DNA from: Lepidostoma basale
Lineage: Eukaryota; Arthropoda; Insecta; Trichoptera; Lepidostomatidae
Assembly: GCA_022606425.2 (NCBI GenBank)
Contig: JAHDVF020000008.1
Span: 248,001-312,000, forward strand
DNA length: 64,000 nucleotides
Direction of reading: 5' to 3'
The notes beneath the pieces were generated by a model. That model worked only from the letters and a program-made list of their open reading frames with translations. It ran no database searches and was not told the DNA's origin. Of this stretch, positions 16,166 to 48,265 are shown one piece after another (the first letter of the stretch is position 1; each line of letters begins with the position of its first letter). Position numbers and translations under genes: made by a program.

Positions 16166-16450
16166 ATCCATTGTTTTGGCGGAAACACTTTGATATTTTA
16201 ACATTATTCACTGTTAAATTAAAAACACTGTTTTAATATCCAAAATAGATTTTTTTTTTTATAAAATCGTCGTGACAGCTGTTTCGGTAACCAATGTTAC
16301 CATCATTAGGTGTTACAATAAACTTATATATTGTACCACCTGACGATTGTAACATCGGTTACCGAAATAGCTGTTGCGATGATTTTATAAAAAATAACTC
16401 AATTTTTGATATTAAAACAGTGTTTTTAATTTAACAGTGAATAAATTAAA
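16166..16450. mobile_element. Ribozyme-foldback element, family B
   Basis: Inverted repeat with arms of about 100 bp (16240-16318 and 16325-16410) and an outer segment starting TCCATTGTTTTGGCGGAAAC. Each arm carries an outward-facing hammerhead-like motif with helix II GGTAAC/GTTACC in the left arm. Related copies: 22718-23222 and 38003-38263; outer ends alone at 29010-29075 and 57665-57730. Confidence 0.75.
16332..16378 (+). ncRNA. Hammerhead-like motif, right arm of family B copy 1
   Basis: CTGACGA (16340-16346) is followed by a helix II hairpin around AACATCGGTT, then GAAATAGCTGTT. The CUGANGA and GAAA core elements and a UH site are present. Helix I pairing is poor. Confidence 0.5.
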
Positions 16451-16465
16451 AACAGTGTAAGTTGA

Positions 16466-16670
16466 TTATTCTTCTTCTGGTGCCGTGTCACGTTCCTCCA
16501 ACGTTGGCGATCACTGCAGCGAAATCATCTCTATCCTGCGCTACTTGGAACAGGTTCTCAACGCTCCTCATTCGTGTACAATCCCGTATACTCTGCAGCC
16601 AGGACAGCTGCCTTCTCTTCCTTCTACGTGGTTATCAGCAGAAGGAGGTGTTTTTTTCCTCCTTATAAAT
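16466..16670 (-). mobile_element. LINE-A 3' terminal fragment
   Basis: A GAA-rich tail (TTCTTCTTC on the plus strand) then the LINE-A end (GCCGTGTCACG, ACGTTGGCGATCACTGC, TGCGCTACTTGGAACAGGTT). Truncated after about 200 bp. Confidence 0.65.
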
Positions 16671-16975
16671 GTTCACGCTCTTTCTAAGTTTATTATAACA
16701 TAATTTTTAGCATTGGTTTTGGAAAAACATGTAAAAACGGGCTACCATCACCATCTTCACCAGAAGATGACAGCGAGTTGCCGAAAAAAAAGAGTATGTT
16801 ATTAAGTATACAAACATTTGTGATTTTTTATTGAATATAATTTTTTTTAAATAACGTTTTTTATTTTCATTATTTACAATAAACTTTTTCCGTGATAACA
16901 AAACATGAATTTCTAATAACAAAACACATATTTAAAAAAATTAAATTAAATACAATTAAATTACTGGTTGAAAAA
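16671..16975. other. AT-rich spacer
   Basis: No feature recognised. Confidence 0.3.
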
Positions 16976-17445
16976 CTAACTAGCTAACTAACTAACCATC
17001 ACGCCATTTCCCCGGAGGGGTAGGCAGAGGATGGATCGCTACAATGCTCTGTCCTGGCATACCTCTCGGGATTCCTCTACATTCATACATCGTACCATGC
17101 ACGCACGTCGATTATTCCGACTTCGAATGTGGCCGTCTTTTAGTAATTGATTAATTTGGTCATGCTATGTTTTCCTCGGTTTCTTTTTCCATTCACGCTG
17201 CTTGAGTAAAACTTTTTAACCATTCTACTCTCATCCATTCGTTCCATATGTCCAAACCATCTTAGGGATCCTTTTTTAATTTTATCCATGATGCAGTCAT
17301 CTGCCTTACATTTCTTTCTTATTTCATCGTTCGGTATTCTATCATACAACGTTTTCCGGCACATTCTTCTTAGTGATCTCATTTCTACGGCGTTTATCCT
17401 GCTTTCATCCTTCTTTTGCTAGTTCCAAGCCTCACTTCCATAAAT
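16976..17445 (-). mobile_element. LINE-T 3' end with tail
   Basis: (AACT)n, ATCACGCCATTTCCCCGGAG, then the coding region on the minus strand including MRSLRRMCRKTLYDRIPNDE, RWFGHMERMDESRM and NGKRNRGKH. It belongs to the SSVNGKR subfamily also seen at 12650 and 27766. Confidence 0.8.
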
Positions 17446-17462
17446 GATTGTTTTTTTTATTA

Positions 17463-17925
17463 CTATCTAATTAACTAACTAACCATCACGCCGTCTCCCC
17501 GAAGGGCTTGGTAGAAAGAATGGACTGCCACAATTTTCTTTCCTGACATATTTCTCTCGCTTCCTCAACATTCATACATCGTATCATGCACGCGCGTCGA
17601 TTTTACTGACTCCTCACATGGCCGACATTCAATATTTGATTTATTTTATCGTGCCACGTTTTCCTCGGTCTTCCTCTATTTTTAGTTCCATTTACATCGT
17701 TAACATATAATTTTTTTACCATTATTTCTTCATTCATTCTTTCCATATGTCCAAACTATTTTAATGATCCTTTCATTATTTTGTTCATAGCTCCATCATT
17801 CGCACCGCATTCACTTATGTCATTCTATCATACACAGAATATCCACACACTCGTCTAAGAGATCTCATTTCTACGGCATTTATTCTACTTACATCCTTCT
17901 TTTGCTAGTTCCATGCTTCGAAAAT
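17463..17925 (-). mobile_element. LINE-T 3' end with tail
   Basis: A second copy in tandem with the previous one, in the same orientation. The NDVNGT subfamily is recognisable, with several frameshifts and a deletion near 17815. Confidence 0.75.
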
Positions 17926-18119
17926 TACGAAAATATATTTTGACAGCTGTCAAAACTCTTCACACAAACAATCAAAAACAGTTTAATAAATTATCAACAG
18001 AGCGTTTCGATATGAAAATCCGTTTATTTTTTTAAAAAATTAATGTATGGTATGTTAATTATTGTAGATCTAAATGGACTATGATCATCAACCATGGACA
18101 ACTTTTTGCAGCATATTGT
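17926..18119. other. Spacer
   Basis: No feature recognised. Confidence 0.3.
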
Positions 18120-18306
18120 TTAATTTTCTCTCCTCTATTTCTGGTTCCATTTACATCGTTAACATATAATTTTTTTACCATTCTTTCTTCCTTCATTCAT
18201 TCCATATGTTCAAACCAACTTAATGATCCTTTCATTATTTTGTTCATAACACCATCATTCGCACCGCATTCACTTCTTATATTTTCATTCGACACTCTAT
18301 CATATA
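18120..18306 (-). mobile_element. LINE-T internal fragment
   Basis: Covers only the NxENIRSECGANDGVMNKI to VNDVNGTRNRGE region, with no tail. Confidence 0.65.
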
Positions 18307-18309
18307 TTT

Positions 18310-18960
18310 TTTTATATACTGTATTTATTTATTGATCATTTACCAAGTACATGGTTTTAATACCTCCGAACTGGGGTAACCCGTTCTAGGGAGGCATTCC
18401 TAGTACTCTATATAATTTTAATATATAATATAATTTACAAATTTAGGGAGCAGTTAAGGGGAGCAACACATATCCTAAAGTGTATAACTTAAAATTAATT
18501 GACTTATATATTAAACAACACTATTTAAACACTATATTGTCTTATATAACACTATTTAAACTATTTACTTATTTTTATAAAATTATACTACATTCAAGCC
18601 GCCCTTTTTTTAATGTCTCCGTAGTTACATGTTTTTTTGTAATTGTGCATTGTCATTTTTTGTGGGTCGTTTATAGTTTTGTTTATTATGTTATAGAGTT
18701 TGGGTCCAAGATAGTAGAAATGTCTTTGCGCATAAGAAGTTTTAGTTTTTGGTACAAAATGGTTATGTTTGTTGCGTGTGTTGTACGTTTGTTGTCCTTT
18801 TAAGTGTCTGTCGGTGTCCTTGTGGTAGTGCACGACTAAATTTATTATTTATAGTTGTATTATGTCCGGTACTTGAAATTCATCGTATAGTTGGTGTGAG
18901 CACTAGTCACTCGGCTTCACTTTTTCAATGAAATATGCTTCCTAGTGTGACTGGACCCCT
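18310..18960 (-). mobile_element. CR1/Jockey-like LINE C-terminus
   Basis: Minus-strand translation at 18594-18833 reads QTYNTRNKHNHFVPKTKTSY, then HFYYLGPKLYNIINKTINDP and a basic end, the usual C-terminal order of CR1/Jockey-type RT proteins. 3' untranslated sequence probably extends down to about 18310. 5'-truncated. Confidence 0.6.
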
Positions 18961-19184
18961 TACGATGGTTCTGACAAATTTCACCTCAATTAGGCTATAT
19001 TGATTTTAGTACACGTGTACACCAACAGAACAGCTAGACCAGGCGAGAGTATTTATGTACATTAATAATTCCGAATTTTTCGTTATTTACACAGTTCTCA
19101 AAGGTCTATTCTAGGCCGAAAAAAATCTATAGTCGATTCCAAATTTCTAGTCAGTCTATTTTTGAATATTTATTTCGAATACTG
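18961..19184. other. Spacer
   Basis: No feature recognised. Confidence 0.3.
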
Positions 19185-19605
19185 TCACAAAAAAAACTTT
19201 TACAAAGCCACCATCAATCCATTAGTAATATATGGTTCGGAGTTTTTTTTTTTTTAAAGGAACATAGAAGTTCCCGCCACATACCCGAGGCTGTTATCGG
19301 GCGTAGCGGCGCCCTTTTATCAGCCTCGCTCGTACACTCCCTGGGCCTGTCCCCGGTCCATCCGGGACTTACATTTAAAGACGGCAACAGCAAGGGGGTG
19401 CCAGACCACATTTAATCTACTACATCCTACTTCTATGCTCCGCTGTACTTTATTGAATAAATAAACATAATATATAATACACGAACATTTTAGGTACATA
19501 AATATTTTAGGTACATGAACATTTTAGGTTCGGTCCCATGGTTCGGAGTCATGGACTTACTATCACAATGGAAGAAATAACTGTACCCTCAACTATGTTA
19601 AATTA
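19185..19605 (+). mobile_element. LINE fragment split by a poly(A) insertion
   Basis: The translation reads FYKATINPLVIYGSE before the insertion and SWTY after it. This is the end of the palm/thumb-proximal region seen in the other LINEs as YGSEAWN or YGCETWT. Split by the 19244-19537 insertion. Confidence 0.6.
19244..19537 (-). mobile_element. Poly(A)-tailed retroelement insertion with 12-bp TSD
   Basis: Flanked by ATGGTTCGGAGT at 19232-19243 and 19538-19549. A T-run at the left shows a poly(A) tail on the minus strand. The body is GC-rich (GGGCCTGTCCCCGGTCCATC) and has an AATAAA site and short TTTTAGGTACAT repeats. Class not recognised; it could be a SINE or a LINE 3' untranslated region. 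Confidence 0.7.
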
Positions 19606-19616
19606 TTCGTTTGGAT

Positions 19617-20076
19617 CAGTCTTTCTCAAAGTGGGCCATAACGCCCCCTTGTGGGCGCTGGTGGCCTAGAGGGGGCGGTAAGGAGCCCAGAAAAAATGGG
19701 GGGTGTTGAAATGGTTTAGGGGGGCTATGGCTGAATTGTAATTTCATCTACTTAATATTTTAAAATATTACCGAACGCGGCGCCTTGCGGCTGTTTTTGA
19801 GTAAATTCGAACCTGATATCAATAAACTTGTTAAAAATCGTCAGATTCATCCTTCACATCAGGTAAGTTTTAAAATTAAAATTGATTATATTTGTTTTAA
19901 TTTGAATAAAAGATACTCTTAATATTATAAAACCACTGGTAAAAAAGTCTCGTATAGAATTAAAGTAATAAATTTCATTGTGGTTTTTAAGATGTGGTAA
20001 AGTAAAAAAAACTAGGGGGCGCTGAAAAATAATTGATTTTCAAAGTTGGCGATAGACGAAATAAGTTTGAGAACCA
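19617..20076. mobile_element. hAT-like non-autonomous element
   Basis: The left end CAGTCTTTCTCAAAGTGG and right end AAGTTTGAGAACCACGG are the imperfect inverted termini typical of hAT elements. Internal GCGCCCCC-type blocks resemble the second element at 46379-46977. No transposase ORF, and the 8-bp duplication is not clear. Confidence 0.55.
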
Positions 20077-20113
20077 CGGTTGGCAGCAATATTTTTTGTG
20101 TGATTTTGGGTAA

Positions 20114-20156
20114 CACCGACGTTTCGGAGATCGTTGCAGTCTCCATCTTCAGGGTA
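20114..20156 (-). ncRNA. Hammerhead ribozyme candidate, family C left arm
   Basis: Minus strand: TACC + CTGAAGA (CUGANGA core) + helix II GGAGA/TCTCC with a 9-nt loop + GAAAC + GTC cleavage triplet + GGTG. Helix I pairs UACC with GGUG (one G-U). Helix III is only AC/GU with no loop, so activity would probably need a dimer, as known for minimal type-I hammerheads. Confidence 0.65.
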
Positions 20157-20185
20157 ATGTGGTGGTGTCATTACCACCACCACAT

Positions 20186-20228
20186 TACCCTGAAGATGGA
20201 GACTGCAACGATCTCCGAAACGTCAGTC
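20186..20228 (+). ncRNA. Hammerhead ribozyme candidate, family C right arm
   Basis: Same core on the plus strand (CTGAAGA at 20190-20196, GAAAC at 20217-20221, GTC at 20222-20224). The helix I partner has drifted to AGTC, so it is weaker than the left arm. Confidence 0.55.
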
Positions 20229-20275
20229 GAGAAGAAGAAATCACACGGTGTTACCCAAAATCACACAAAACATAT

Positions 20276-20485
20276 GTTCGTTTAGAGTCCTTAAGTCTCA
20301 AGCACAACTGACACTATAAATCGCTTGAACAGTTTAGAACTAAATATCACACATATTTTATCTCGGATAAAAGCATAGGATAGTAATTAAATAAAACATT
20401 ATTTTTAAGAACTGCTTCCTTTTTTATCTTTATTTCGACAACCACTGGTTTCGGCTTGCTGGCATTGACAATTGACATCGTGTTT
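20276..20485. other. Spacer with a hammerhead-like relic
   Basis: At 20445-20485 the minus strand reads GCCGAAACCAGTGGTTGTCG, resembling the GAAAC side of a family-E arm. The CUGANGA side is not convincing. Confidence 0.3.
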
Positions 20486-20489
20486 TTTT

Positions 20490-20980
20490 ATCAAATCAAA
20501 TCAGTTTATTAACTCAAAAGACATTACAAACAGGAAAAAGTTTAAGGCATCTACTGAGTACAGATAAAATATTAATAAAATACAATATAGTACCAGGAAC
20601 GCATTAGAGATGGTTTGACATTAGGAAGACATACTTTCTAAAGTCAAGAGTATTTGTCTCGTAACGTACCTTCACTAATATGAAAGACGTCGATCTCCAG
20701 AGAGACCGCGTTCAGCAGACTAATTACTCTTCCCACTGGTGTCACCAGAGGCAGATTGGTTTTGGTGCCCGTAGGTAGCACAATCTGTGCTGTCGCTGTC
20801 GGAGAAATCTATCAGGAACAAAATGACCAACTTCCTCTAGCACGGTCGAGTTCTCGAAATATCAACTGATTAATTTAAAGAAATGGGCAAGGAGATGCCC
20901 ATCTCTTCGAAGCTGTAATGAATGGGTTCCAAGTATTCCTAACAGAAATATCGTGGGATAGAGCCACGGATAACTAACTA
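20490..20980 (-). mobile_element. LINE-F C-terminal fragment, TTGAT-rich tail
   Basis: The minus-strand translation, with frameshifts, contains the blocks DRFLRQRQHRLCYLPTGTKT, NLPLVTPVGRVISLLNAVSL and EIDVFHISEGTLRDKYS. These resemble CR1/Jockey-type RT C-termini. The 3' end is CTGATTTGATTTGAT-like. Other copies: 57825-58210, 58285-58690, 62355-62810, and 63835-63965 on plus. Confidence 0.65.
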
Positions 20981-21092
20981 CAGATTTTATGAACTGATAC
21001 AACTGATGCATCGAAAAACAACGTTTTATTTCATTGTTATTTAATTTTATAATTCTTTTAACTTTAAAATAAAATAAAAATACACTTTTAGT

Positions 21093-21455
21093 TGTTGTAT
21101 CTAAACCACTTTATTTAGTAACACCAACCGGTTTCGATTCCACCAGAGCTTTGTTAGGGTGAGAGAAAAAACTAAACATGAAATTAGAGAATAACATATG
21201 AAGAAAAACATATAAAATGCAGGGGAGAAAAATTGGTAGGAGTGAGGAGGACGGTGATTCATGACTCACCGTTCTGAAATTCTATTCGTCCTCGCGCACA
21301 CTTTATCCTACCCCACTTTCTCCTCACTATTTTATATTTCTTTCTTCAAATGTTGTTCTCCGAATTTATGTTTAGTTTATACTCTCAACCTGACGAAGCT
21401 CCGGCGGGAGCGAAACCGAGTGGTATTACCAAATAAAGTGGTTTAAATACAAATA
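21093..21455. mobile_element. Ribozyme-foldback element, family E
   Basis: The ends TCTAAACCACTTTATTTAGT and CAAATAAAGTGGTTTAAATA are inverted repeats. The two hammerhead-like motifs lie just inside and read outward. The central 230 bp is not palindromic and has no recognisable gene. Confidence 0.7.
21386..21424 (+). ncRNA. Hammerhead-like motif, family E right arm
   Basis: CTGACGA (21390-21396) + a perfect GCTCC/GGAGC helix II + GAAAC (21412-21416) + CGAGTGG. The cleavage-site base is G here, which would prevent cleavage. The left arm (minus strand) keeps GAAACCGGTTGGTG and helix I GGTG/CACC but has CTAACAA at the core. Each arm has lost a different part. Confidence 0.55.
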
Positions 21456-21463
21456 AGTATATT

Positions 21464-21690
21464 ATAAAACTAACTAACCAACCATCACGCCGTCTCTCCG
21501 AAGGGGTAGGCAGAAAAAATGGACTGCCACACTTTTCTTCCCTGACATATTTCTCTCGATTCCTTAACATTCATATATCGTGTAAAACACTCACATGACC
21601 GACATTCAATATTTGATTTATTTGATCGTGCCACGTTTTCCTCGGTCTTCCTCTATTTCTGGTTTCATTTACATCGTTAACATATATTTT
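21464..21690 (-). mobile_element. LINE-T 3' end, left arm of inverted pair
   Basis: Tail (AACC-type), CTCTCCGAAGGGGTAGGCAG, then coding region to the NDVNET-like region. It abuts a plus-strand copy at 21692. Confidence 0.75.
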
Positions 21691-21691
21691 T

Positions 21692-22104
21692 CTATAAGAT
21701 CTCTAAGACGAATGTGTGACAAATCTGTATATGATAGAGTGACAAATGCAAGTGTAAGAAGTGAATGTGGTGCGAATGAAAGTGTCATGAACAAAATAAG
21801 GAAAGGGTCATTAAGATGGTTTGGACACATGGAAAGAATGAGTGAAGACAGAATGGTAAAGAAGGTATATGTAAACGGCGTGAACGGAGCTAGAAATAGA
21901 GGAAGGCCGAGGAAAACGTGTCACGATCAAATCAATCAAATATTAAATGTCGGTCGCGTGAGGAGTCGGAAAAATCGACGTGCGTGCATTACAATATGTA
22001 TGAGTGTAGAGGAATCGAGAGAAGCATGTCAAGACAGAACATTGTGGCGTTCCATTCTTTCTGCCTACTCCTCCGGGGAGACGGCGTGATTGTTAGTTAG
22101 TTTA
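21692..22104 (+). mobile_element. LINE-T 3' end, right arm of inverted pair
   Basis: An open frame of about 130 codons: SLRRMCDKSVYDRVTNASVR, RWFGHMERMSEDRM, RGRPRKTCHDQINQ, MSVEESREACQDRT and WRSILSAYSSGETA, then the CTCCTCCGGGGAGACGG hairpin and a short tail. Head-to-head with the previous fragment. Confidence 0.85.
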
Positions 22105-22105
22105 A

Positions 22106-22195
22106 CATATTATATAATTTTTTTTACCATTATTTCTTCATTCATTCATTCCATATCTCCAAACCATCTTAATGATCCTTTCATTATTTTGTGTT
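22106..22195 (-). mobile_element. LINE-T internal scrap
   Basis: About 90 bp of the NKIMKGSLRWFGDMER to MVKKIIY-like region in reverse, directly after the tail of the preceding copy. Confidence 0.6.
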
Positions 22196-22717
22196 AAAGT
22201 GTATTATTATTTTATTAAATAATGTCTCACCACAAACTAAGCGCTTCATACGGAAATTCTTTAAACTTTCATTAAGAGATTACTTTGAAATAATTAGATT
22301 ATCTTAAACATTAGTAGTTTACATGATTCAACCGTCCTAGGTCATTATGGTAGATTACATTTGCTATAATAATAAGGAGTTTTATTGTATTAGATAAAGC
22401 CGTATATAGGTAAATGCGGTTATTGTATGTGTGTTGTATGTAGGTGTGTGTTTTGGTTTAGGATCTAAACCATGTGGTTATTAATTCCCTCTGGACAAAG
22501 ATACTTACTCGTACATGTGTCGAACCGCATAGAGTGCCTATTAATAGAGTGCTTAGAGGATTATACAAACAAAAGTACCATCTGAGAGTAATCTGTCATG
22601 AAATATGGCAGTCTGTCGTGGAATAAAGATTTTAAATCTTTGTGCACTTATATTATATTTATAAACAGATAAATATATGGAGAAACTGTCTCATTTATGC
22701 ATTGCTTTATAAAAAAA
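22196..22717. other. Unassigned
   Basis: No gene or repeat recognised. Confidence 0.3.
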
Positions 22718-22778
22718 AACATTACTGTTAAAATGTATAACACTGTTATTATATCACAATTTATTTTTATTAACTGAG

Positions 22779-22832
22779 AATGTCGCGACAGCTGTTTCGC
22801 AAACCGATGTTGGCATCATCAGGTGTTACAAA
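22779..22832 (-). ncRNA. Hammerhead ribozyme candidate, family B copy 2 left arm
   Basis: Minus strand: CTGATGA, helix II around GCCAAC/GTTTGC (one mismatch), GAAAC, AGCT, GTC. The core residues are intact. The right arm (22840-22895, plus) has TTGATGA with helix II GTCAAC/GTTGGC and GAAACAGCTGTC. Helix I is weak in both. Confidence 0.6.
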
Positions 22833-22979
22833 AAATTGTATTTTGTAACACTTGATGATGTCAACATCGGTTGGCGAAACAGCTGTCGCGACATTCTCAG
22901 TTAACAAAAATAAATTGTGATATTATAACAGTGTTATAAATTTTAACAGTTATAATGTTGAAGTATCATAGTGTTTCGG

Positions 22980-23207
22980 ACTTGGACTTGGATCTTCTGG
23001 CTTACAGAGGTTCAGCTCTAATGGCTATTCCTCTTACGTCTGTAGGAAACATTGTTGGAAGCGATTTGGTAGTTGTTTTATGATGGGGCTAAATGTATGG
23101 CCCGGAGTGTCCCTCCGAAAGAGGGCGAGGGTGGATTTAGGGTTTATGATAAAGTCTTACATTATTGTTACGGAATGGAAGACCAGTTAGGTTTGGGAAT
23201 GTATGTC
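22980..23207 (+). repeat. Dispersed repeat R1, nested copy
   Basis: Closely matches 13650-13880 but stops earlier. It is inserted between GTGTTTCGG and AAAACAATGG, which are contiguous in other family B ends (29045-29065). No clear target-site duplication. Confidence 0.65.
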
Positions 23208-23222
23208 AAAACAATGGACTAT

Positions 23223-23660: not shown

Positions 23661-23667
23661 ATTAAAT

Positions 23668-24665: not shown

Positions 24666-24668
24666 AGC

Positions 24669-34320: not shown

Positions 34321-34984
34321 TCTGACGAAACATATATAAATCTTAGATAATCAGGTTGTTCTAAACTTGAGAAGGTAAAGAGTTATGAGTATATTTGTAT
34401 CATCTTTATGGAAACCCTCGTTGTAGATTCAAAGGATAAAAGAAATAATCACGAAAGTAAGTATATTTTTTTGTTTGATCTAAAAAAGACATGAAATTTT
34501 TATAGCAAAGATTTCGTCGTTTCATCAGCGTACACTTGAACGCTCATCAAAGTGACTAAGTCTCTTCAAAAGTTATACAATCATCTGAAGAAAGTAAGTA
34601 AGTTTGTCGAACAAATATGTAAAAATTCATATTATATTATTATATAATAATTCATATTAAATACTGTTGAAAAATACCTTATATATTATGGAAGTGACAA
34701 CATTTACCTGGTTAGCCAATTTTATAATGCCGTAGCACGGGAGAATATGTCACTCCCATAAAATATAATAAAACTTTCGGAAAACGGTTTTATCTAACAA
34801 AATAAGTCTATTTTCTCGTCTAATATTTTCAACGTTGAATTACATACATTAGCTCTAATATTTAATATAACGGTCGGTTTGATGATTTAATACATTAAAT
34901 ATTTATTTATAAACAAGACTTCTTTGTTTCCTGAACGATGATTTAAATTTTCTCTTTTTCTTTTTTATATACTTTGTATATACA
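34321..34984. other. AT-rich DNA with a family D foldback relic
   Basis: At 34675-34800 the TGGAAGTGACAACATTTACC and ATATGTCACTCCCATAAAAT ends resemble the outer sequence of family D (see 48155-48265), with the ribozyme part degraded. Confidence 0.3.
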
Positions 34985-35006
34985 ACACTTACATTAAAAA
35001 AAAAGT

Positions 35007-35050
35007 TACATAGACATGTTTCGGACAATCAGTCCTTCATCAGTGATACA
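35007..35050 (-). ncRNA. Hammerhead ribozyme candidate, family A left arm
   Basis: Minus strand: TGTATCA + CTGATGA + helix II GGAC/GTCC (loop TGATT) + GAAAC + AT + GTC + TATGTA. Helix I can form six pairs (two G-U) if one C is bulged. Helix III is AC/GU with a two-base loop. All conserved core bases are present. Confidence 0.65.
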
Positions 35051-35094
35051 TATTATAAATATACATATTTAAAATATTATGTGTCTTTATAATA

Positions 35095-35138
35095 TGTATC
35101 ACTGAAGAAGGACTGGTTGTCCGAAACATGTCTATGTA
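35095..35138 (+). ncRNA. Hammerhead ribozyme candidate, family A right arm
   Basis: CTGAAGA (35102-35108), helix II GGAC/GTCC (loop TGGTT), GAAAC (35123-35127), GTC (35130-35132), TATGTA. The changes from the left arm fall at the free N7 base and in the helix II loop. Confidence 0.65.
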
Positions 35139-35296
35139 ATTTTAATTTTTATTAATATGTATAATATATAATAATGTTATTTTATTAATATGTATAAGAT
35201 AAATAAAGCATCTACGAGTACAATACAAAGTATGGCGAATATAGAAGAGATGATTTAAAACTTTCTATTATATAATTAATATGAAATAATGTTTTT

Positions 35297-38002: not shown

Positions 38003-38263
38003 ATGTTATAACTGTTAATTCAAAAACTTTGTTTTATATCACAAATTGTATTCACAGCTGTTTCATCAACCAATGTTGACATCATCAGGTGTTACAAAAA
38101 ACGTTGTTTTTTGTAACACCTGATGATGTCAACATTGGTTGATGATACAGCTGTCGTAAAGTAAAATAAATACAATTTGTGATATAAAACAGAGTTTTTG
38201 AATTAACAGTTATAAAACGTTAAAATATCATCATAGTGTTTCGGCTTAAACAATGGACTAAAA
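38003..38263. mobile_element. Ribozyme-foldback element, family B
   Basis: Arms at 38010-38100 and 38102-38215, and outer right end CATAGTGTTTCGGCTTAAAC. Left arm on minus: CTGATGA (38088-38082), helix II GTCAAC/GTTGAT, GAAAC, but the cleavage triplet is GTG. Right arm: CTGATGA (38120-38126) with GATAC in place of GAAAC. Both are probably inactive. Confidence 0.75.
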
Positions 38264-39011: not shown

Positions 39012-39400
39012 TTTAATTGTATCTAAATAGAGACGAAGACGTAAACTGGAAACTGAACATGGATGATCAAGGTGTTTACAGGACTTATGACCTGTCATTG
39101 GTTGGGTTAAGCGCACGATTTATGTAATTACAACATTCCCCATTCCACCTTTGTTATTTGTGATCATGCATGACAAATTTTTGGAAGATGTATTTATACT
39201 TCAAAATCCATATTTATCTTCACGTAGCAGTTTCAGTCAGCCATCTATGTAGATTTCGTTGCACTTGTGAATTTTTTCAAGAATTAACCTATACAACCGA
39301 CCCACTAACGCCATCTATGGAGAATGATTTTCGGCATATTAACACAATGCGAAGGCTGTCGACCAACATATTGTTAGAAGCCGCTAGGAGTATTATTCCA
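39012..39400 (+). mobile_element. Foldback FB half-unit
   Basis: TTAATTGTATCTAAATAGAG start, GGTTGGGTTAAGCGCACG middle, and an inner part with ACTAACGCCATCTATGG and TTAACACAATGCGAAGGC. Matches one arm of the dimer at 11395-12060. Confidence 0.65.
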
Positions 39401-39770: not shown

Positions 39771-40008
39771 TTTTTGGTTTGTTCCAATTGGGCCAGTAAT
39801 GCAGTACCTAATTTCCCACTGCTTTCCACATGTTACGAAATATATCGTGGCAAACAATTATTTTAAGCGTGGTTTAAATGTGATATAAACATTATAATAA
39901 AAAGATCAATCAATTAGTTTGGCATACGAAACTAATTTATCAAGAGGTTGATAAAGTAAATAAAAAAAAAATAAGGAGAGTACGCAATTTAAATAATTTT
40001 ATGTGAGA

Positions 40009-40260
40009 ATTAATTGTATCTCAATAGAGACGAAGATGCAACTTGGAAACAGAATATGGTGATCGAGGTGTTTACAGGACTTTTGACCTTTCATTGGTTG
40101 GGTTAAGCGCACGCTTTATGTAATACAACATTCCCCATTCCACCTTTCTTACGACCACCATGTCTGTCGATTTTTTTTAAAGTTGTATATGTGTTAATAT
40201 GTAACACGAAACTTCATATGTTAGTTTCAATCTACACACTGGCGCCAACTATTTTTTATT
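40009..40260 (+). mobile_element. Foldback FB half-unit
   Basis: TTAATTGTATCTCAATAGAG to GTTTCAATCTACACACTGGC. A single arm. Confidence 0.65.
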
Positions 40261-40269
40261 TTATGTGAC

Positions 40270-40352: not shown

Positions 40353-40369
40353 ACCTTTTTTCAATACCC

Positions 40370-41412: not shown

Positions 41413-42697
41413 TTAGTTCCTTACATATGAAATTGGCGTTTTGTATGGGAGGAACATAAAGTTGATTTTTTTTAAATATAATATATTTATTTAATCAAAG
41501 TATGTACCATTGCTATCTATGCACTTTTGCCATCTCATAGGTAGTTCATCGATCCCTTTACTAAAAAAAACATTCGGACGGGAATCAATAAAATCTTTGA
41601 AGTCGGTTTGGACTGCCCCATCGGAGTTGAATTTTTTCCCTTGCAAGAAGTTATCCAAATTTCGAAAAAAATAGTAATCTGTTGGGGCAAGGTCCGGAGA
41701 GTACGGTGGATGTCTTAGACATTCCAATTTAAGCTCTTCTAATTTGGTAGTCGTCTGTTGTGCAGTGTGTGGTCTAGCGTTATCATGAAGCAGCAGTGGC
41801 CTAGAGCGATCAACCAGCCTCGGTTGTTTAGCAGCTAGCTTTTCCATCATGGTTTGCAGTTGCTGACAATAGACATCTGCCGTAATCGTCTGGCCAGATT
41901 TAAGAAAGCTGTAGTGAACGACACCAGCACTAGTCCACCAAACGCTCACAAGTAACTTTTTTGGAGTCAATTTTCGCTTGGGGCATGGTTTGGCTGGTTC
42001 GGCAGGGTTCAGCCATTGCGATGAGCGCTTCCGATTATCATACAGGATCCACTTTTCATCACAGGTAATGATTCGATTCAAAATCCCTTCATTATTGTGC
42101 CGGTTGAGTAATGCAACGCAGCAGTCAACGCGCGTTTGTTGATTTGCTTCACTCAATTCGTGAGGTACCCACCTTTCAAGCTTTTTCACCTTCCCAATTT
42201 GCTTCAAGTGGATAAAAACAGTTTTATCACTAACACCGCAGCCTGCAGCTAACTCGGACGTGGTTTGCGATGGATCCGCTTCCACAATAGCCTTAAATTC
42301 TTCATTATCAACTTTGGTCTCCGGCCGTCCACGGGGCTTGTTCTGCGGGTCGAAATTTCCATAACGAAAACATTGGAACCAAAAACGCACTGTGTTTTCT
42401 TTTGCGGCACCGTCGCCATACACATCATTAATCCTTCGAGCCGTTTCTGCAGCACTGGTGCCACGGTGGAACTCGTACTTGTAAATAATGCGATATTTCA
42501 AGTTTTCCATTTTGTAAACTGAGTGACGCAAAGAAAAAAAACAATTGAGGAAAAAACAAATTAATTATAATTTTCGAGACACAAATACTTGAGTAAATAG
42601 CTGTATAAATTTGAATTTGGAATTCCTAACCAAAGAGAAGATATTTGAGATCAAAGTTGCCAGTACGACAACGCTAATTTCATATGTAAGGACCTAA
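41413..42697 (-). mobile_element. Mariner transposon, cecropia type, copy 1
   Basis: Flanked by TA dinucleotides (41411-41412 and 42698-42699). Terminal inverted repeats of about 25-30 bp: TTAGTTCCTTACATATGAAA at the left and the inverse of TTAGGTCCTTACATATGAAA at the right, with one change close to the left tip. 1285 bp, a full-length mariner size. The transposase ORF is intact. Confidence 0.9.
41491..42510 (-). CDS. Mariner transposase, intact, DD34D
   Basis: 339 codons from MENLKY (an in-frame Met seven codons earlier is less likely). The protein cuts and joins DNA at TA sites. N-terminal paired helix-turn-helix domains occupy about residues 1-110, with QNKPRGRP at the hook region (56-63). 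WVPHEL is at 114-119. The catalytic triad is D151 (TCDEKWIL), D243 (LLHDNARPH) and D278 (YSPDLAPTD), with 34 residues between the last two, the mariner hallmark. It resembles the cecropia subfamily that includes human Hsmar1/SETMAR. Compared with copy 2 it has Cys at residue 47 (Arg there) and Tyr at 50 (Ser there) in the DNA-binding region, so activity is uncertain despite the intact frame. Confidence 0.9.
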   Translation of the reverse strand: MENLKYRIIYKYEFHRGTSAAETARRINDVYGDGAAKENTVRFWFQCFRYGNFDPQNKPRGRPETKVDNEEFKAIVEADPSQTTSELAAGCGVSDKTVFIHLKQIGKVKKLERWVPHELSEANQQTRVDCCVALLNRHNNEGILNRIITCDEKWILYDNRKRSSQWLNPAEPAKPCPKRKLTPKKLLVSVWWTSAGVVHYSFLKSGQTITADVYCQQLQTMMEKLAAKQPRLVDRSRPLLLHDNARPHTAQQTTTKLEELKLECLRHPPYSPDLAPTDYYFFRNLDNFLQGKKFNSDGAVQTDFKDFIDSRPNVFFSKGIDELPMRWQKCIDSNGTYFD

Positions 42698-42699
42698 TA

Positions 42700-43149
42700 T
42701 ATTTACGCATTGATTTAAAAAATAATATTAATAATAATCAGAATTTATCGGGTACATCGGAGGTATTTTGTGAAAATCGAAAACAAATTCGCGTATAAAC
42801 AGCGCTTTGAGTGCGCGACACTATATTCGCATCTCACTCTTGCATATGTTCTAGCTCAATTTTCTCTCTCTCGCCGTCCCGCCACGCCGGCAGTGGCGGC
42901 AGTCACTTTCGGGCTTGTAACCAGAACGGGCTTATGCCCGTTCCGTGAACCTTGCCAGATGTTTTTTTAATGTTTTTATCAATTAAATCTCAATTATTAT
43001 AATTTTTGACTTCAATTATAATTATATAAGGGGATTAGCTATGAATGTTCCTATTTTTCCGATTTAAAATCGCTAATTTTTTAACGCGTACTGACTACCC
43101 TACACTGGAACGCGCGTTTTTATTTTAGCACCGTAAGGGAAAGGTTAAA
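42700..43149. other. Unassigned, with a GC-richer patch
   Basis: The 42850-42960 segment (GCCACGCCGGCAGTGGCGGC, ACGGGCTTATGCCCGTTCC) has small palindromes but no recognised family. Confidence 0.3.
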
Positions 43150-43191
43150 TAAAACACTTTGTATTTAACCATGGTATGGTTATTATGTTTG

Positions 43192-43623
43192 GTCAGTGCT
43201 GTTATACGGGGTGGAGTCATGGACCCTTAAAGTCAATATTATGAACCGATTAGAGGCCTTTGAGATGTGGATACGCCGAAGGATGTTACGCATTTCCTGG
43301 ACTGACATGGTCAGCAACACAAATGTTCTCCATAGAGCCAGAGTTGACAGAGAGTTGCTGACCAACATCAAAGTCCGTAAGGTGTCCTACTTGTGCCATG
43401 TTCTGAGAGGCGAAAGGTACGCACTGTTGCATCTGATCTTGGAGGGTAAGATTGAGGGTCGACGAGGCGTTGGGAGAAGGTAGGTTTCCTGGCTGAGGAA
43501 TATCCGAGAGTGGACAGGGCTAAGGACCGAGGAGGAGCTGTTCCGGGTGGCCCAGGACAGGGAGGCCTACTCAAGGGTGATGGTCAACGTTGAGGAGACC
43601 TGACAGGACACGGAAAGAAGAAG
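43192..43623 (+). mobile_element. LINE-A 3' fragment captured in composite
   Basis: YGVESWTLKVNIMNRLEAFE, RRMLRISWTDMVSNTNVLHR, then SYLCHVLRGERYALLHLILE, GRRGVGRR, a stop (TAG), and LRNIREWTGLRTEEELFRVA; ends with GACCTGACAGGACACG and a GAA-type tail. 432 bp between 16-bp target-site duplications. Confidence 0.85.
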
Positions 43624-43640
43624 ATGGTTATTATGTTTGA

Positions 43641-43680
43641 TGCCAACTAGTTTCGCTTGGTCCCAAGCTTCATCAGGGCA
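43641..43680 (-). ncRNA. Hammerhead ribozyme candidate, most complete
   Basis: Minus strand, 40 nt: TGCC + CTGATGA + A + GCTTGG-GA-CCAAGC + GAAAC + TA + GTT + GGCA. Helix I UGCC/GGCA is four perfect pairs, helix II six perfect pairs, helix III AC/GU with a two-base loop. Every core base of the family is present. The cleavage site is GUU, which is allowed (UH) but less common than GUC. It would cut about 50 nt inside the left end of the element. Confidence 0.75.
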
Positions 43681-43928
43681 GTATAACAAGTAAACTACAA
43701 TACAAGCTTTACACGTACATATAACAAACGGTGGTGAAATCAGAGGAAGGGGTGCGAGAGGGAAAGGGATAATCGAAAAAATGTTTACCGATGGAACAAC
43801 ATAGCAATTTTGTTCCAAAGGTAAACATTTTTTGGATTATCCCTTTCCCTTTCGCACCCCTTCCTCTGATTTCACCGCCGTTTGTTATATGTACATATAA
43901 TGTTTGTATTCTAGTTTAGTTGTTATAC

Positions 43929-43968
43929 TGCCCTGATGAAACTTGGTTCCAAGCCAAACTAGTTTGCA
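43929..43968 (+). ncRNA. Hammerhead-like motif, right arm, core mutated
   Basis: CTGATGA at 43933-43939 and helix II ACTTGG/CCAAGC-like, but CAAAC (43955-43959) replaces GAAAC. The loss of the invariant G should abolish cleavage. Confidence 0.6.
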
Positions 43969-44008
43969 TCACGTATAATAACCATACCGTGGTTAAATAC
44001 AAAGTGAT

Positions 44009-44329
44009 TAATTTATTTTCTATTTTTATAAATGTTAAAAATAACGCTCAAATGGCATCATAAGAACCAGCAGTTAATAAAACTTTGCTGTAAACCAATC
44101 CTTAGGGCTGAAACAAAAAAAAACTATCAAAAAATAGCTATTGTGAATAAATGTGGATTTTTCATTTCTTTGCTTGAAAGTCTTGATTATTATAGGATTT
44201 TTGGGGGAAAGGAGGTGCCTCCAGGTATAGTGTTACTATAACACCCGGCAACCCTGGAAACGACACGAAGTCGACCAAAAATAGGGTTAGTAATAATATT
44301 AAAATATCTGTTTTCTAGAAGTGTTAATA
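44009..44329. other. Spacer
   Basis: No feature recognised. Confidence 0.3.
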
Positions 44330-44462
44330 TATTTAATGTGAATGGCATGCTTCGCCTGTCTAAGGCATTATCAAATGTGGTATTATTAAAACATTTGATC
44401 ATGCATTAGACAGGCAAAACATATCATTCACGTAAAATATAAAATAAAACACACGTTTTCAT
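44330..44462. mobile_element. Ribozyme-foldback element, family D
   Basis: GAATGGCATGCTTCGCCTGT with inverse AGACAGGCAAAACATATCATTC. The left arm on minus reads TTGATAA, helix II GCCT/AGGC, then GAAGC, so the core is degraded. Confidence 0.5.
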
Positions 44463-44467
44463 TCGTA

Positions 44468-44645
44468 TTAACTAACTAACTAACCATCATGCCATATCCC
44501 CGACGGGGTAGGCAGAAATAATGGACTGTCACACTTTTCTTTCCTGCCATTCATGCATTGCACGCGCGTCGATCTCTGACTCTTCACGTGGCCGACATTC
44601 AATATTTGATTTATTTGATCATGGTCGGTCTTCCTCTTGTTCTAG
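44468..44645 (-). mobile_element. LINE-T 3' end with tail
   Basis: (AACT)n, CATATCCCCGACGGGGTAGG and a shortened coding relic. Confidence 0.7.
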
Positions 44646-44769
44646 AATAATATGTATATTCGTATTAATTTTATAATAATTGTGTTTGTAATGTTTGAAA
44701 AAATGGATCTTACATATTAATATTTTTAAAAATTACATATATTATTTTATTTTTAATATTATATAGATA

Positions 44770-45122
44770 GGAGTGACATCTCCAGGCGGTTTCTAACGAT
44801 GCGCTAATGGCAGTAGCCTTTCACGTTGTGTTAAAAAGATATTCTGCTTAATGCTTAATAAACACAAATCTTCATAGATGGCGTTAGTATGTAGATTGCT
44901 TAAACTACCACGTAAAGAGTAGTATTAGAGATTAACATATATACAACTTCCAAAAGTTTGTCAGACATGGTGGTCATAAGCAAAGGTGGAATGGGGAATG
45001 TTGTATTACATTAAGCGTGCGCTTAACCCAACCAATGACAGGTCATAAGTCCAGTAAACATCTTGATCAACCATATTCTGTTTCCAATTTGAATCTTCGT
45101 CTCTATTGAGATACAATTAATT
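44770..45122 (-). mobile_element. Foldback FB half-unit
   Basis: GTGACATCTCCAGGCGGTTT to TCTCTATTGAGATACAATTAA. A near-complete single arm that includes the GCGCTTAACCCAACCAATGA block missing from the left arm at 11395. Confidence 0.7.
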
Positions 45123-45606
45123 CTTGAATATTATTTTTAACCTATATTTTTAAATAAAAGATAATTGATTTGTTTTAAGTGTAATTTTTGGCTACGCATC
45201 GATAGAAATGGAAGCTTTTGTTCGATACTCAATCCTCGTGGGAGTATTTACATACCTCGTGGCCACCCATCCCTAGAGCGTGAGCGGATCTGCGCGCGTG
45301 ACCGCCCTACAGATGAGGACCAATTTATAACCCAATCCGAGTCGACGTGACGGCCAAATGGAAAAGATATGTCAAATATCGAAATACATTTTTCCTCATC
45401 TTGGATGGCGAATAAATCATTCCAGCGGTGTTTCTGGGCGGCGCGGCGTTATTGCGATCTTGGCTCCTAATATCCGGGCTGCTTTGTTTTTTCAATTATT
45501 TATGGTATTTAGACACTGCTCTCTTTAAAATTACTATTAACATAATTACGAACTTGATTTTAAACCATTTCATTAAGTTATACCTTCAGATGGTTTAAAA
45601 TATCTG
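45123..45606. other. Unique DNA
   Basis: No repeat recognised; moderately GC-rich around 45230-45340 and 45420-45480. Confidence 0.3.
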
Positions 45607-46003
45607 GAAAACTAACTAACTAACTAACCATCATGCCGTCTCCCCGAAGGGGTAGGCAGAAAGAATGGACTGCCACACTTTTCTTTCCTGACATATTTCT
45701 CTCGATTCCTCAACATTCATACATCGTGTCATGCAGGCGCGTCGATTTTTCTAACTCCTCACATGGCCGACATTCAATATTTGATTTATTTGATCGTGCC
45801 ACGTTTTCCTCGGTCTTCCTCTATTTCTGGTTCCATTTACATCATTGACATACAATTTTTTTACCATTCTTTCTTCATTCATTCTTTCCACATGTCCAAA
45901 CCATCTTAATGATCCTTTCATTATTTTGTTCATGACACCATCATTCGCACCGCATTCACTTCTTATATTTTCATTCGACACTATCATACACAGAGGACGC
46001 ATC
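45607..46003 (-). mobile_element. LINE-T 3' end, split by FB half-unit
   Basis: (AACT)n, CTCCCCGAAGGGGTAGGCAG, then open minus frame SNENIRSECGANDGVMNKIM, RWFGHVERMNEERM, RPRKTWHDQINQILNVGHVR. Interrupted at about 46003 by an FB unit; it continues at 46137-46305 to the EAWNWQK region. Confidence 0.85.
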
Positions 46004-46007
46004 GATA

Positions 46008-46137
46008 TCTCAATAGAGACGAAGATTCAAATTGGAAACAGAATATGGTTGATCAAGGTGTTTACAGGACTTATGACCTGTCATTGGTTGGGTTAAGCGC
46101 ACGCTTTATGTAATACAACATTCCCCATTCCACCTAT
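46008..46137 (+). mobile_element. Foldback FB fragment nested in LINE-T
   Basis: TATCTCAATAGAGACGAAGA to CATTCCCCATTCCACC. On both sides lies TATTTTCATTCGACACTATC (45966 and 46139), a duplication of about 24 bp created at or near insertion. Confidence 0.7.
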
Positions 46138-46305
46138 ATATTTTCATTCGACACTATCATATCCGCACATTCGTCTAAGAGATCTCATTTCTACTGCATT
46201 TATTATACTTTCATCCTTCTTTTGCCAGTTCCATGCTTCGCTTCCATACATAAGACACACACACTGCCATTCTAGCTTTTTTGGATAGGTTTTTGTTTAA
46301 ATTAC
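46137..46305 (-). mobile_element. LINE-T continuation after nested insertion
   Basis: A duplicated ATTTTCATTCGACACTATCA, then CATTCGTCTAAGAGATCTCA, up to the AMAVCVL-like region. Part of the same LINE copy as 45607-46003. Confidence 0.75.
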
Positions 46306-46378
46306 TCTTTTAAAATACAATTAACATAATTACGAATACTCGATTTTAAACTATAACATTTCTTCAGATGGTTTAAAA

Positions 46379-46977
46379 CAGTGATTCTTAACGGGGGCGC
46401 CAGCGCCCCTTTGTGGGCGTTTTAGAGGTCTGAGGGGGCGTTTATAAATTTTCAGAATTTAGGGGGCGCTGCAGGAGTTCCAGTGGGCGTTATGTCGAAA
46501 TACAAAAATAAGGTGCAGTAATGCATATATTTAAAAAATCACGAAATCGATTACAAATAAGCCAAAGAGGAGATATGAGATTGTATTTAAGTAAATTTGA
46601 ACCTAATATTACGAAATTGGCGCAATCACATGAGGCTCAAGGATCTCATTAAATTTATTATTATTATTTTTTTTAAATTTTCGTATTTCGTATTGAATCA
46701 TGTACTTTTTTATTGAAATAATATTATAATGTTGTGTTTAATGTTAATATGACAAAAAAGGCAATAAATACATAATGTTTATAAAAATAATCACCGGTTT
46801 TATTTTTGTTTCTCCTATTTTTTTATTTATGGTAGGAAATCGATTGCATCAAATACATTCGTGGAGAAAAGTGTAAATTTTGAATTTTGCATTTTGTTTG
46901 GGGGGGGGGGGGGGGGGTGTTGGATAATTTTACCCTGGTAAAAGGGGCGATTCTTTCTATACGGTTAAGAAACACTG
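46379..46977. mobile_element. hAT-like non-autonomous element with perfect 8-bp TSD
   Basis: GTTTAAAA lies immediately on both sides (46371-46378 and 46978-46985). Termini CAGTGATTCTTAACGG and GGTTAAGAAACACTG are inverted repeats. Internal GGGGGCGCC-type blocks resemble 19617-20076. Contains an 18-bp G-run. No transposase. Confidence 0.85.
46900..46917. repeat. (G)18 run
   Basis: Eighteen consecutive G inside the hAT-like element. Possible G-quadruplex-forming or sequencing-error-prone site. Confidence 0.9.
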
Positions 46978-47017
46978 GTTTAAAATATCTGGATGTGCAG
47001 ATAAACTCTTCTAAATA

Positions 47018-47370
47018 ACTAACTAACTAACTAACTAATCATCACGCCGTCTCTCCGAAAGGGTAGGCAGAAATAATGGACTGCCACACTTTAATCAATG
47101 CGGCACTCCATCCTTCTCTTTTCGCCCCTGCGAGAGACGCGGTGTGATGGGTTGCGAACCTCATCGACACCATTAGGCATCACCCGCGCACACTTGGATC
47201 GTTCAACGTATAACATAATAAATCTAAAACAAATTGAGTAAAATGCACAGATATATTATATAAAATAACAAATAAAAGTAATTTAACACATAATGTTCTT
47301 TTAGATGGTGCACTTGTCGTCAGCTGAACGATCCGGACATTCTTGTTTATTTAATTTTCATTCCACGTTA
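47018..47370 (-). mobile_element. LINE-T-tailed SINE-like element
   Basis: (AACT)4, ATCACGCCGTCTCTCCGAAA, the LINE-T tail to ACTGCCACACTTTA, then the body starting ATGCGGCACTCCATCC and ending GAACGATCCGGACATTCTTG. Full length. Confidence 0.8.
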
Positions 47371-47393
47371 TCGACTGTTTTTTTTAAATTACT

Positions 47394-47520
47394 AACTAAC
47401 TAACTAACTAACTAACCTTCACGCCGTCTCCCCGAAAGGGTAGGCAGAAAGAATGGACTGTCACACTTTTACTGATGCGGCACTTCATCCTTCTCTTTTC
47501 GCCCGCGGGAGACGCGATTT
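47394..47520 (-). mobile_element. LINE-T-tailed SINE-like element, truncated
   Basis: (AACT)5, the tail, GATGCGGCACTTCATCC and the CGCGGGAGACGCG hairpin, then cut. It sits 25 bp from the previous copy. Confidence 0.75.
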
Positions 47521-48001
47521 TTTAATTATTATACTATTAACATAATAACGAATACTAGATTTTAAACCATTACATTATTTAGTTTTTATTGAACAATGGT
47601 GTAAAACTCTATATTAAATAATAAATATTAATGAAAACGTCAGTTTTCTAGAAGTTTTAGTATATTTAATGGGAATGACATGTTTCACCCTTCTAAGGCA
47701 TCGTCAAATGTCATTACATTTGAAGTGTTCTTTCTATCTTTTTTCAGAGTATAATAAATAGCATAATTAGATTTAAAAATGGAAACGGAATTTTATATTA
47801 CCAATGACATACAAAAGAAAAAAAGCATTTCAATAAACTATTAGGTGTTCGGCAATGTCAACACACTTGATGATTACATTTTATAAATTGAGCGAAAAAA
47901 AATTAATGGTAAATAAAGATAATAAATTATAAAGATTTTATATTATAATACAACTTTATTAACAAGATTTTTTCTTGTATGTTTCCATTTACATATAAAT
48001 T
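47521..48001. mobile_element. Family D foldback half and AT-rich DNA
   Basis: At 47672-47715 the minus strand reads TTGACGA, helix II GCCTT/AAGGGT-like, GAAAC, AT, GTC, then ATTCCC: a family D arm with only C3 of the core changed. The rest is AT-rich with nothing recognised. Confidence 0.45.
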
Positions 48002-48150
48002 AAGTAAATAACCATCACGCCATCTCTCCGCCAAAGGATAGGAATAAATATGGACCACCACACTGTTCTTTCCTGCCAGATTTATCTCGTATCCTCAACA
48101 TGCATACATCATGTCATATACGCACATCGATTTCTCTGACTCTTCATTAC
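48002..48150 (-). mobile_element. LINE-T 3' fragment
   Basis: ATCACGCCATCTCTCCGCCA, then about 100 bp of the C-terminal coding region in reverse; cut by the family D foldback. Confidence 0.65.
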
Positions 48151-48154
48151 ATTG

Positions 48155-48265
48155 TCATTACATTTCGCCCTTCTAAGGCATCATCAAATGTCATTACATT
48201 TGATAATGCCTTAGAAGGGCGTAACATGTCATTCCCATAAAATATAATGAAACTTCTAGAAAACT
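48155..48265. mobile_element. Ribozyme-foldback element, family D
   Basis: Palindrome centred near 48193 (CTAAGGCATCATCAAATGTC). Left arm on minus: TTGATGA, helix II GCCTT/AAGGGC, GAAA. Right arm: TTGATAA with GTAAC. C3 is U in both, so activity is doubtful. Outer sequence CCCATAAAATATAATGAAAC recurs at 34770 and 44430. Confidence 0.6.

Follow-up and report, generated by a model that had tools for sequence, protein, structure and literature searches.

Foldback elements with hammerhead-like motifs

The window analysed here is a 64-kb stretch of Lepidostoma basale DNA (contig JAHDVF020000008.1, positions 248,001 to 312,000), in which inverted-repeat, or foldback, elements of six families (A, B, C, D, E and the composite family M) were found. 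An initial annotation had listed these elements and proposed that they are inverted dimers of Penelope-type terminal repeats rather than miniature inverted-repeat transposable elements (MITEs). The inverted-repeat search and the sequences themselves confirmed the elements in their places. The proposal on their nature was supported by target duplications of variable length, asymmetric tails, differing centres in families B and C, matches of families A, D and E to DNA a short way 3′ of GIY-YIG pieces and the existence of coding pairs of the same layout. In our view, the foldbacks most likely arose through the insertion of Penelope-like retroelements (PLEs), each foldback consisting of two 3′ terminal repeats placed head-to-head with an outward-facing minimal type I hammerhead motif in each, and formed probably via two-sided target-primed reverse transcription.

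The strict scan of both strands of the window (CTGANGA, 0-1 nt, a stem of at least 4 pairs, GAAA) gave seven matches, compared with a mean of 0.1 and a maximum of 1 in 60 first-order Markov windows, which is about 70 times the chance level. The outward order of a CTGANGA-like sequence, a hairpin, a GAAA-like sequence, a short stretch and TH, as annotated before, was borne out. The matches lay in both arms of family A (35102 + and 35043 -) and family C (20190 + and 20152 -), and in single arms of E (right, 21390 +), M copy 2 (left, 43676 -) and B copy 3 (left, 38088 -). The core, stem II and UH were present at all seven sites. By eye, a stem I of 3-4 bp could be read in the left arm of C, in M and in E, and a bulged or weak one in A and B. 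Among the cores previously called intact or nearly so, those of both arms of A, both arms of C and the left arm of M copy 2 proved intact, and so did that of the left arm of B copy 2, but with a mismatch in stem II. The core of M copy 1 (8551) was broken in both arms.

One additional A or U was present between A9 and stem II in all seven matches, a nucleotide overlooked in the initial annotation. A scan of 115,920 bases around other copies, with the bait elements masked and spacings of 0, 1 and 2 permitted, gave 14 strict sites, which are not independent because some belong to families B, C or A; the spacing was exactly 1 nt in all 14 (7 T and 7 A), and the palindrome described below was present in nine of them. 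The extra nucleotide thus occurred at 21 of 21 strict sites of the window and the flanks, and the insertion-free canonical core at none. When one mismatch was tolerated over the window and the flanks (179,920 bases), 34 sites had a spacing of 1, nine a spacing of 0 and eight a spacing of 2, with palindromes at the helix III position in 22/34, 3/9 and 2/8 of them, respectively, and the extra base in this relaxed scan was T in 19 cases, A in 14 and G in one. A uniform extra nucleotide in PLE hammerheads was not found in literature titles, the key papers on PLE hammerheads lying outside that search, a negative that does not establish its absence from print. De la Pena and Flores (2001) reportedly described a chrysanthemum chlorotic mottle viroid hammerhead that works although an additional nucleotide separates A9 from stem II; that is a single case, whereas here the extra nucleotide recurs across families. 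Additional hammerhead-like sites with an extra A were also seen in the flanks of the loci L010 (CTGAGGAa..GAAACCGGT), L012 and L069, the last of which contained a tight outward-facing motif pair (1010 - / 1069 +).

A palindrome at the helix III position

The helix III position had been annotated as a loop of 0-4 nt. Our results showed a self-complementary stretch there in at least one arm of all six families, namely ACATGT in A and D, ACAGCTGT in B, ACGT in C, ACTAGT in M and ACCGGT in the left arm of E, the strict right arm of E having lost it. As a background, 13.3% of the 978 GAAA sites on both strands of the window precede such a palindrome. Its presence in six of six families, taking one representative arm from each, has a probability of about 5.5e-6 if the families are independent, a value that is somewhat flattering in that the left arm was chosen for E and a palindrome-keeping copy for D. 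The base directly 3′ of the palindrome was C or T in every representative arm, which fits the need of the hammerhead for a cleavage site. Judged from sequence, the palindrome may act as a helix III formed between two RNAs, with the putative ribozyme working, and possibly cleaving itself, as a dimer. Lunse et al. (2017) are said to have described type I hammerheads with almost no helix III that are dispersed by thousands in animal genomes and may cleave as dimers; the motifs described here appear to resemble them in type, in the near-absent helix III, in their high dispersal and in possible dimer cleavage. The core of family D was TTGAYGA, with C3 changed to U, at both scored sites (47707 - and 48187 -), so that D may be a lineage with a putatively dead ribozyme in which the remaining motif persists.

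Copies of families B and C in the genome

Among the families of the window, copies of B and C were sampled in a single genome assembly of 769 Mb, with those taken that were closest in sequence to the elements of the window. The search for B returned 80 rows, with 40 scored of 4690 first-look candidates, and that for C also returned 80 rows, with 40 scored of 1438 candidates. For B, 19 of 23 loci (four repeated the same places) and 20 more were used, with C291:300548 left out; after L014 and L026 were dropped for having the same flanks as others, 37 copies were obtained, including window copy 2. For C, 23 distinct copies, including that of the window, came from 30 loci.

The two arms of a copy usually ended at different points. 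In family B, one arm ended mostly near consensus positions 108-122, and the other reached positions 155-160 via a tail containing ATGGACTATTTAA. Exactly one tail was found in 32 of the 37 copies, the exceptions being L002, L004, L005, L038 and L039. In family C, where one tail was defined as a difference of at least 20 consensus positions, it was found in 18 of 23 copies, with partial tails in L044 (the window copy), L046 and L049, none in L059 and two in L064. The excess of one-tailed copies over the 50% ceiling expected for independent choice of ends was significant in both families (p = 3.7e-6 for B and 0.005 for C). Target duplications of at least 8 bp flanked 11 of the 37 B copies, as compared with 2.0% of 1442 re-paired control flanks, and 11 of the 23 C copies, as compared with 0.34% of 876; their length varied from 8 to 14 bp, and the sites were AT-rich by eye.

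In the 32 one-tailed copies of B, the sister arms shared 70 of 293 minor alleles (0.239), compared with a mean of 0.090 and a maximum of 0.147 in 300 re-pairings. Between copies, sharing was 0.089 for tailed with tailed arms, 0.073 for untailed with untailed and 0.085 for mixed pairs; with classes so nearly equal, tailed and untailed arms do not look separately inherited. At every arm position, the frequencies in tailed and untailed arms were within 0.2 of each other, and copying of B as a palindromic unit was rejected, as there were no variants specific to the tail side. In addition, the variant at the head (T or A) agreed between sister arms in 26 of the 31 copies scored, six of the 37 being unscored (Fisher p = 1.7e-4). 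The heads of B mostly met at a fixed base with a few nucleotides between them, and longer copy-specific filler was present in the centres of L012, L024, L037 and L040. In both families, the centre junctions differed between copies, and the start of the unit was a fixed base preceding the motif, distinct from the cleavage site. The arm and tail of C contained, by our own reading, an open frame from the ATG in CTGAAGATGG to the end of the tail about 112 nt further on. Reverse transcription of the Anolis element PAc most often starts 111-118 bp into its open reading frame (ORF) (PMC11167929), a likeness that may be a coincidence.

Links to Penelope genes

Of 541 candidates in a search for GIY-YIG domains, 150 were scored, and 62 of these were matches. 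One match, L074, contained a single 758-aa frame with both a reverse transcriptase domain (RVT_1, 1.4e-13) and GIY-YIG. This frame was flanked by inverted repeats of 456 nt that were 99% identical and carried outward-facing motifs (L074:3269 + and 292 -). The L074 type is not among the six families of the window; it lies in a TA-rich simple repeat on both sides (L074:1-272 and 3338-3601), which makes its target duplication unreadable. Among the 3′ regions of 20 further GIY-YIG matches, chosen for diversity, an intact-core motif with a palindrome was found in five (L082, L084, L086, L089 and L093), and weaker motifs in L090 (one mismatch) and L078 (two mismatches, out of register).

Three families of the window matched DNA 3′ of GIY-YIG pieces. 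The right arm of A matched that of L078 (69% over 203 bp), and the tail sequence ATGGYGAATATAGAAGA was part of the match. E matched that of L094 (78% over 213 bp, E = 5e-40), in an alignment that showed the same core and a mismatch in stem II. D copy 1 (84% over 70 bp and 73% over 90 bp), D copy 2 (88% over 93 bp) and a further D arm (86% over 100 bp) all matched L095. A Penelope-derived pair at 60698-61217, which the initial annotation had missed, matched L093 (91% over 394 bp). These four links are to GIY-YIG pieces (L078, L093, L094 and L095), putative parts of PLE genes, and no such link was found for B, C and M. L079 and L085 also matched family B; the match of L079 spans the centre of B and looks, from its sequence, like a B insertion, and L085 ends within its match. 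Two GIY-YIG loci stood apart: L076 (C102:22600-24000), a 466-aa open frame and the best GIY-YIG match in the assembly, was excluded as a PLE on its apparent resemblance to bacterial UvrC and could stem from a contaminating or symbiont contig or reflect an insertion, and L077, which resembles SLX1, appears to be a GIY-YIG gene of another kind than those of PLEs.

By eye, all five close GIY-YIG neighbours among the matches listed were head-to-head (-,+), and no close (+,-) neighbours occurred among them. Four of them (L097-L100) were taken whole as coding pairs, and of the fifth (L075) only the right half was taken. The four coding pairs were alike: all were head-to-head, 5′-truncated pieces with outward motifs in both arms and with a single tail of about 45 nt that starts an open frame (ATGAACTTCCATCAAG..., our own reading). 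Their longest arms were 673, 1133, 871 and 989 nt long and 98-100% complementary, with 256, 1, 359 and 66 nt between the arms, L097 splitting into further shorter pairs, and their target duplications were 12, 12, 13 and 12 bp. All four tails were on the right, which arbitrary orientation gives by chance in 1 of 8 cases. The inverted placement, which had been called unusual, is therefore the rule among these neighbours, and it has been described in rotifer elements (PMC3846280).

Integration model and comparison with known elements

Two traits of PLEs were found in these data: pseudo-long terminal repeats (pLTRs) with a one-sided tail (32/37 in B, 18/23 in C and 4/4 in the coding pairs), and target duplications whose length varied, at sites that looked AT-rich, in B, C and the coding pairs. 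A frame for reverse transcriptase and GIY-YIG joined to its own terminal repeats was seen for the L074 type, which lies outside the six families of the window. In kind, the foldbacks and the coding pairs look like a single product, and they differ in how far the arms extend towards the 5′ end. Families B, C and M are assigned to PLEs on the motif, and B and C on their architecture as well, so that their membership is probable rather than traced to a gene. In the mechanism that we propose, a dimer of the PLE protein would make two cuts in AT-rich DNA, one on each strand and about 8-14 bases from the other, and one and the same short RNA would be reverse transcribed twice, with each cut end as a primer. 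Of the two copies, one would start from an outer site and include the tail, and the other from an inner site and lack it; both would run to the 5′ end of the RNA, after which the two heads would be joined, sometimes with a few filler bases. For the ORF-less RNAs, the protein would presumably act in trans. The Anolis PLE protein is reported to cut and extend both strands in vitro, with reverse transcription initiating at internal positions of the RNA that delimit the tail (PMC11167929).

Inverted repeats, tails and hammerheads are already known in Penelope elements. In the bdelloid rotifer Adineta vaga, inverted pLTRs, a tail and the head-to-head order have been described, with the tail optional on one pLTR, as here; the target duplications there are 8-10 bp where present, and the pLTR with the tail holds the start of the ORF (PMC3846280). 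The rotifer elements are low in copy number, in contrast to the 4690 (B) and 1438 (C) first-look candidates for ORF-less pairs in this genome, and the hammerhead goes unmentioned in the main text of that report (PMC3846280). The Poseidon element PAc of Anolis carolinensis also has reverse transcriptase and GIY-YIG in one frame and a hammerhead at the junction of pLTR and ORF, but it is described as tandem, whereas inverted pairs dominate among the copies examined here (PMC11167929). The ORF of PAc begins at the start of stem II (PMC11167929), and a reading of CTGAAG-ATG-G, that is, with the extra nucleotide, would fit this start. ORF-less head-to-head pairs of PLE terminal repeats as high-copy elements were not found in literature titles, Craig 2021 and the key PLE-hammerhead papers lying outside that search. 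The integration of PLEs can be read here from its scars: the two well-sampled families show two outer ends, one per side, a fixed 5′ joint and, in B, a common template for both arms. Moreover, abundant hairpin repeats of MITE-like appearance, or sub-threshold matches to microRNA precursors, may be pairs of PLE terminal repeats in disguise.

A number of results count against the model. Duplications of at least 8 bp were not found, with the settings used, in 26 of the 37 B copies and 12 of the 23 C copies, and no link to a PLE gene was found for B, C or M. Sharing between sister arms of C (6/94, 0.064, compared with 0.029 after re-pairing) was within the range of the re-pairings (maximum 0.152), and sister arms could also have become alike through gene conversion within the palindrome. 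The perfect 1133-nt arms of L098, only 1 nt apart, are what would be expected if the cDNA (complementary DNA) had snapped back on itself, yet L098 has one tail.

The ribozyme part of the model met with further contrary results. No match to the Rfam hammerhead models was found in the window at E ≤ 10, and none in nine other loci, six of which are Penelope gene loci; a whole-genome search with RF00008 gave nothing over threshold, and control genomes likewise gave nothing. The covariance-model check suggested earlier therefore came out empty and uninformative: the miss in the window says little, as Rfam was also blind at the six Penelope gene loci, and its hammerhead models fail to detect these motifs. 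In single-molecule folds of three motifs, stem II formed (z-scores -2.3, -1.3 and -0.6), the hammerhead fold appeared in none of the three, and in the folded B and M motifs, core bases paired with the palindrome. Judged by pattern, 49 of 74 arms of B had an intact core (both arms in 17 of 37 copies), as did 32 of 46 arms of C, and the enrichment of intact cores expected among genome copies did not emerge, since conservation at the core positions did not significantly exceed that of the remaining arm (permutation p = 0.33 for B and 0.14 for C). No motif was found by the filter used in 13 of the 20 GIY-YIG 3′ regions. In L074 and in each of the four coding pairs, the core has one change and reads CTGTCGA, which agrees with cleavage not being needed for insertion. 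For Anolis PAc, hammerhead cleavage is reported to be unnecessary for insertion in vitro, and the protein to be necessary for cleavage (PMC11167929).

Alternative explanations

The closest competitor is a PLE insertion in which only the first arm comes from the RNA and the cDNA then snaps back and self-primes the second strand, as self-priming has been proposed for rotifer PLEs (PMC3846280). The shared variants of B sister arms and the perfect arms of L098 would follow from it directly. The same outer end is predicted on both arms, however, and a single tail was found in 32/37 copies of B, 18/23 of C and all of L097-L100; three of the four coding pairs also have 256, 359 or 66 unpaired nucleotides between the arms. 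Two outer ends and a single inner origin are better explained by two starts on the same template RNA than by snap-back, which we regard as unlikely. Far less probable is that a transposase moved these elements as conventional DNA transposons of the foldback or MITE kind, with a hammerhead likeness arising by chance. Like such transposons, they are small and abundant (from the first-look candidates of B and C, 40 scored each) and have long inverted arms; against this stand the 8-14 bp spread of target duplications in B and C, the unequal ends with a one-sided tail, the copy-specific filler in some centres, the matches of three other families to DNA 3′ of GIY-YIG pieces and the roughly 70-fold excess of the motif. 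Equal terminal inverted repeats with a duplication of fixed length were not found in B and C, and the MITE reading of these two families was rejected.

We give equally little credence to retrozymes, circular hammerhead RNAs copied from tandem repeats, which are likewise small, ORF-less type I hammerhead units and have been proposed to use PLE proteins (PMC7761336). Retrozymes are direct tandem units, whereas neighbouring motifs within 900 bp here were head-to-head in six cases, tail-to-tail in two and tandem in one, and the units of B and C start at a fixed base upstream of the motif instead of at the cleavage site. Direct-tandem units cut at the ribozyme site were not found, and this reading was rejected. 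Within the two-sided priming model, a speculative extension, rather improbable as it stands though slightly less so than snap-back, is that the helix III palindrome pairs two template RNAs. The hammerhead fold would then be a dimerisation element that gives the PLE protein dimer two sister RNAs, one per cut DNA end, and the mirror-image insert and the ribozyme dimer would be two faces of one complex. If this were true, the ORF-less families would be parasites of PLEs, similar to short interspersed nuclear elements (SINEs), retaining little beyond the dimerising motif and the start sites of reverse transcription.

Features of the window

Table 1. Positions of foldback elements, hammerhead-like motifs and related repeats in the window
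Feature	Position	Strand	Remarks
Family A element	34948..35248	.	head-to-head Penelope terminal-repeat pair
Family A candidate target duplication GATGATTTAAA	34937-34947 and 35249-35259		11 bp, by eye; L078 alignment extends slightly past
Family A left-arm motif	35013..35043	-	intact core, extra A, palindrome ACATGT
Family A right-arm motif	35102..35132	+	intact core
Family C element	20075..20275	.	copy L044
Family C left-arm motif	20118..20152	-	intact core, extra T, palindrome ACGT
Family C right-arm motif	20190..20224	+	intact core
Family B copy 1	16160..16447	.	left-side tail; ends approximate, by eye
Family B copy 1 left-arm motif	16309	-	CTAATGA
Family B copy 2	22721..22979	.	right-side tail; copy L001
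Family B copy 2 left-arm motif	22787..22822	-	core intact, mismatch in stem II
Family B copy 2 right-arm motif	22852..22887	+	C3 to T
Family B copy 3	38003..38260	.	right-side tail; ends approximate, by eye
Family B copy 3 left-arm motif	38053..38088	-	intact core
Family B copy 3 right-arm motif	38120..38155	+	GATA instead of GAAA
Composite (M) copy 2	43624..43985	.	arms 43624-43802, 43807-43985
M copy 2 left-arm motif	43645..43676	-	intact core, extra A, palindrome ACTAGT; stem I 4 bp UGCC/GGCA by eye
M copy 2 right-arm motif	43933..43964	+	CAAA instead of GAAA
M copy 1	8551..8722	.	core broken in both arms (CTGTGAA); ends approximate
Family E element	21095..21452	.	arms 21095-21241, 21306-21452
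Family E right-arm motif	21390..21421	+	intact core, palindrome lost
Family D copy 1	44310..44471	.	span of matches to 3′ region of GIY-YIG piece L095
Family D copy 2	48146..48288	.	ends approximate; left-arm C3 to T (48187 -)
Further family D arm	47612..47723	-	TTGACGA, palindrome ACATGT
Penelope-derived head-to-head pair	60698..61217	.	inverted arms 60737-60827, 61127-61217; motifs decayed
Decayed relative of L074-type Penelope terminal repeat	20380..20470	-	78% over 95 bp

Both copies of M continue on the untailed side into a common repeat (8690-8760 and 43570-43640; ..CCTGTCAGGTC..CAACGTTG..-like), which is either part of M or a shared target. A nested foldback at 11395-12061 had arms of 202 nt that were 93% complementary with 13 nt between them. 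Its outer arms (11395-11481 and 11975-12061) matched L079 downstream of the GIY-YIG fragment, as well as 39013-39101, 40006-40097, 45032-45125 and 46006-46087 of the window, and possibly represent another family of PLE terminal repeats, one without a scored motif. A further inverted repeat (44984-45113 and 46006-46135) consisted of 130-nt arms that were 98% complementary and 892 nt apart. Matches to Rfam microRNA families were numerous in the window, all below the gathering score, and were taken as a by-product of the palindromes. The window also contained two transposase copies, at 41491-42564 and 48955-50023 (-), which we take to be of mariner type, one open over 357 aa and the other split in two frames, together with several presumed retrotransposon fragments.

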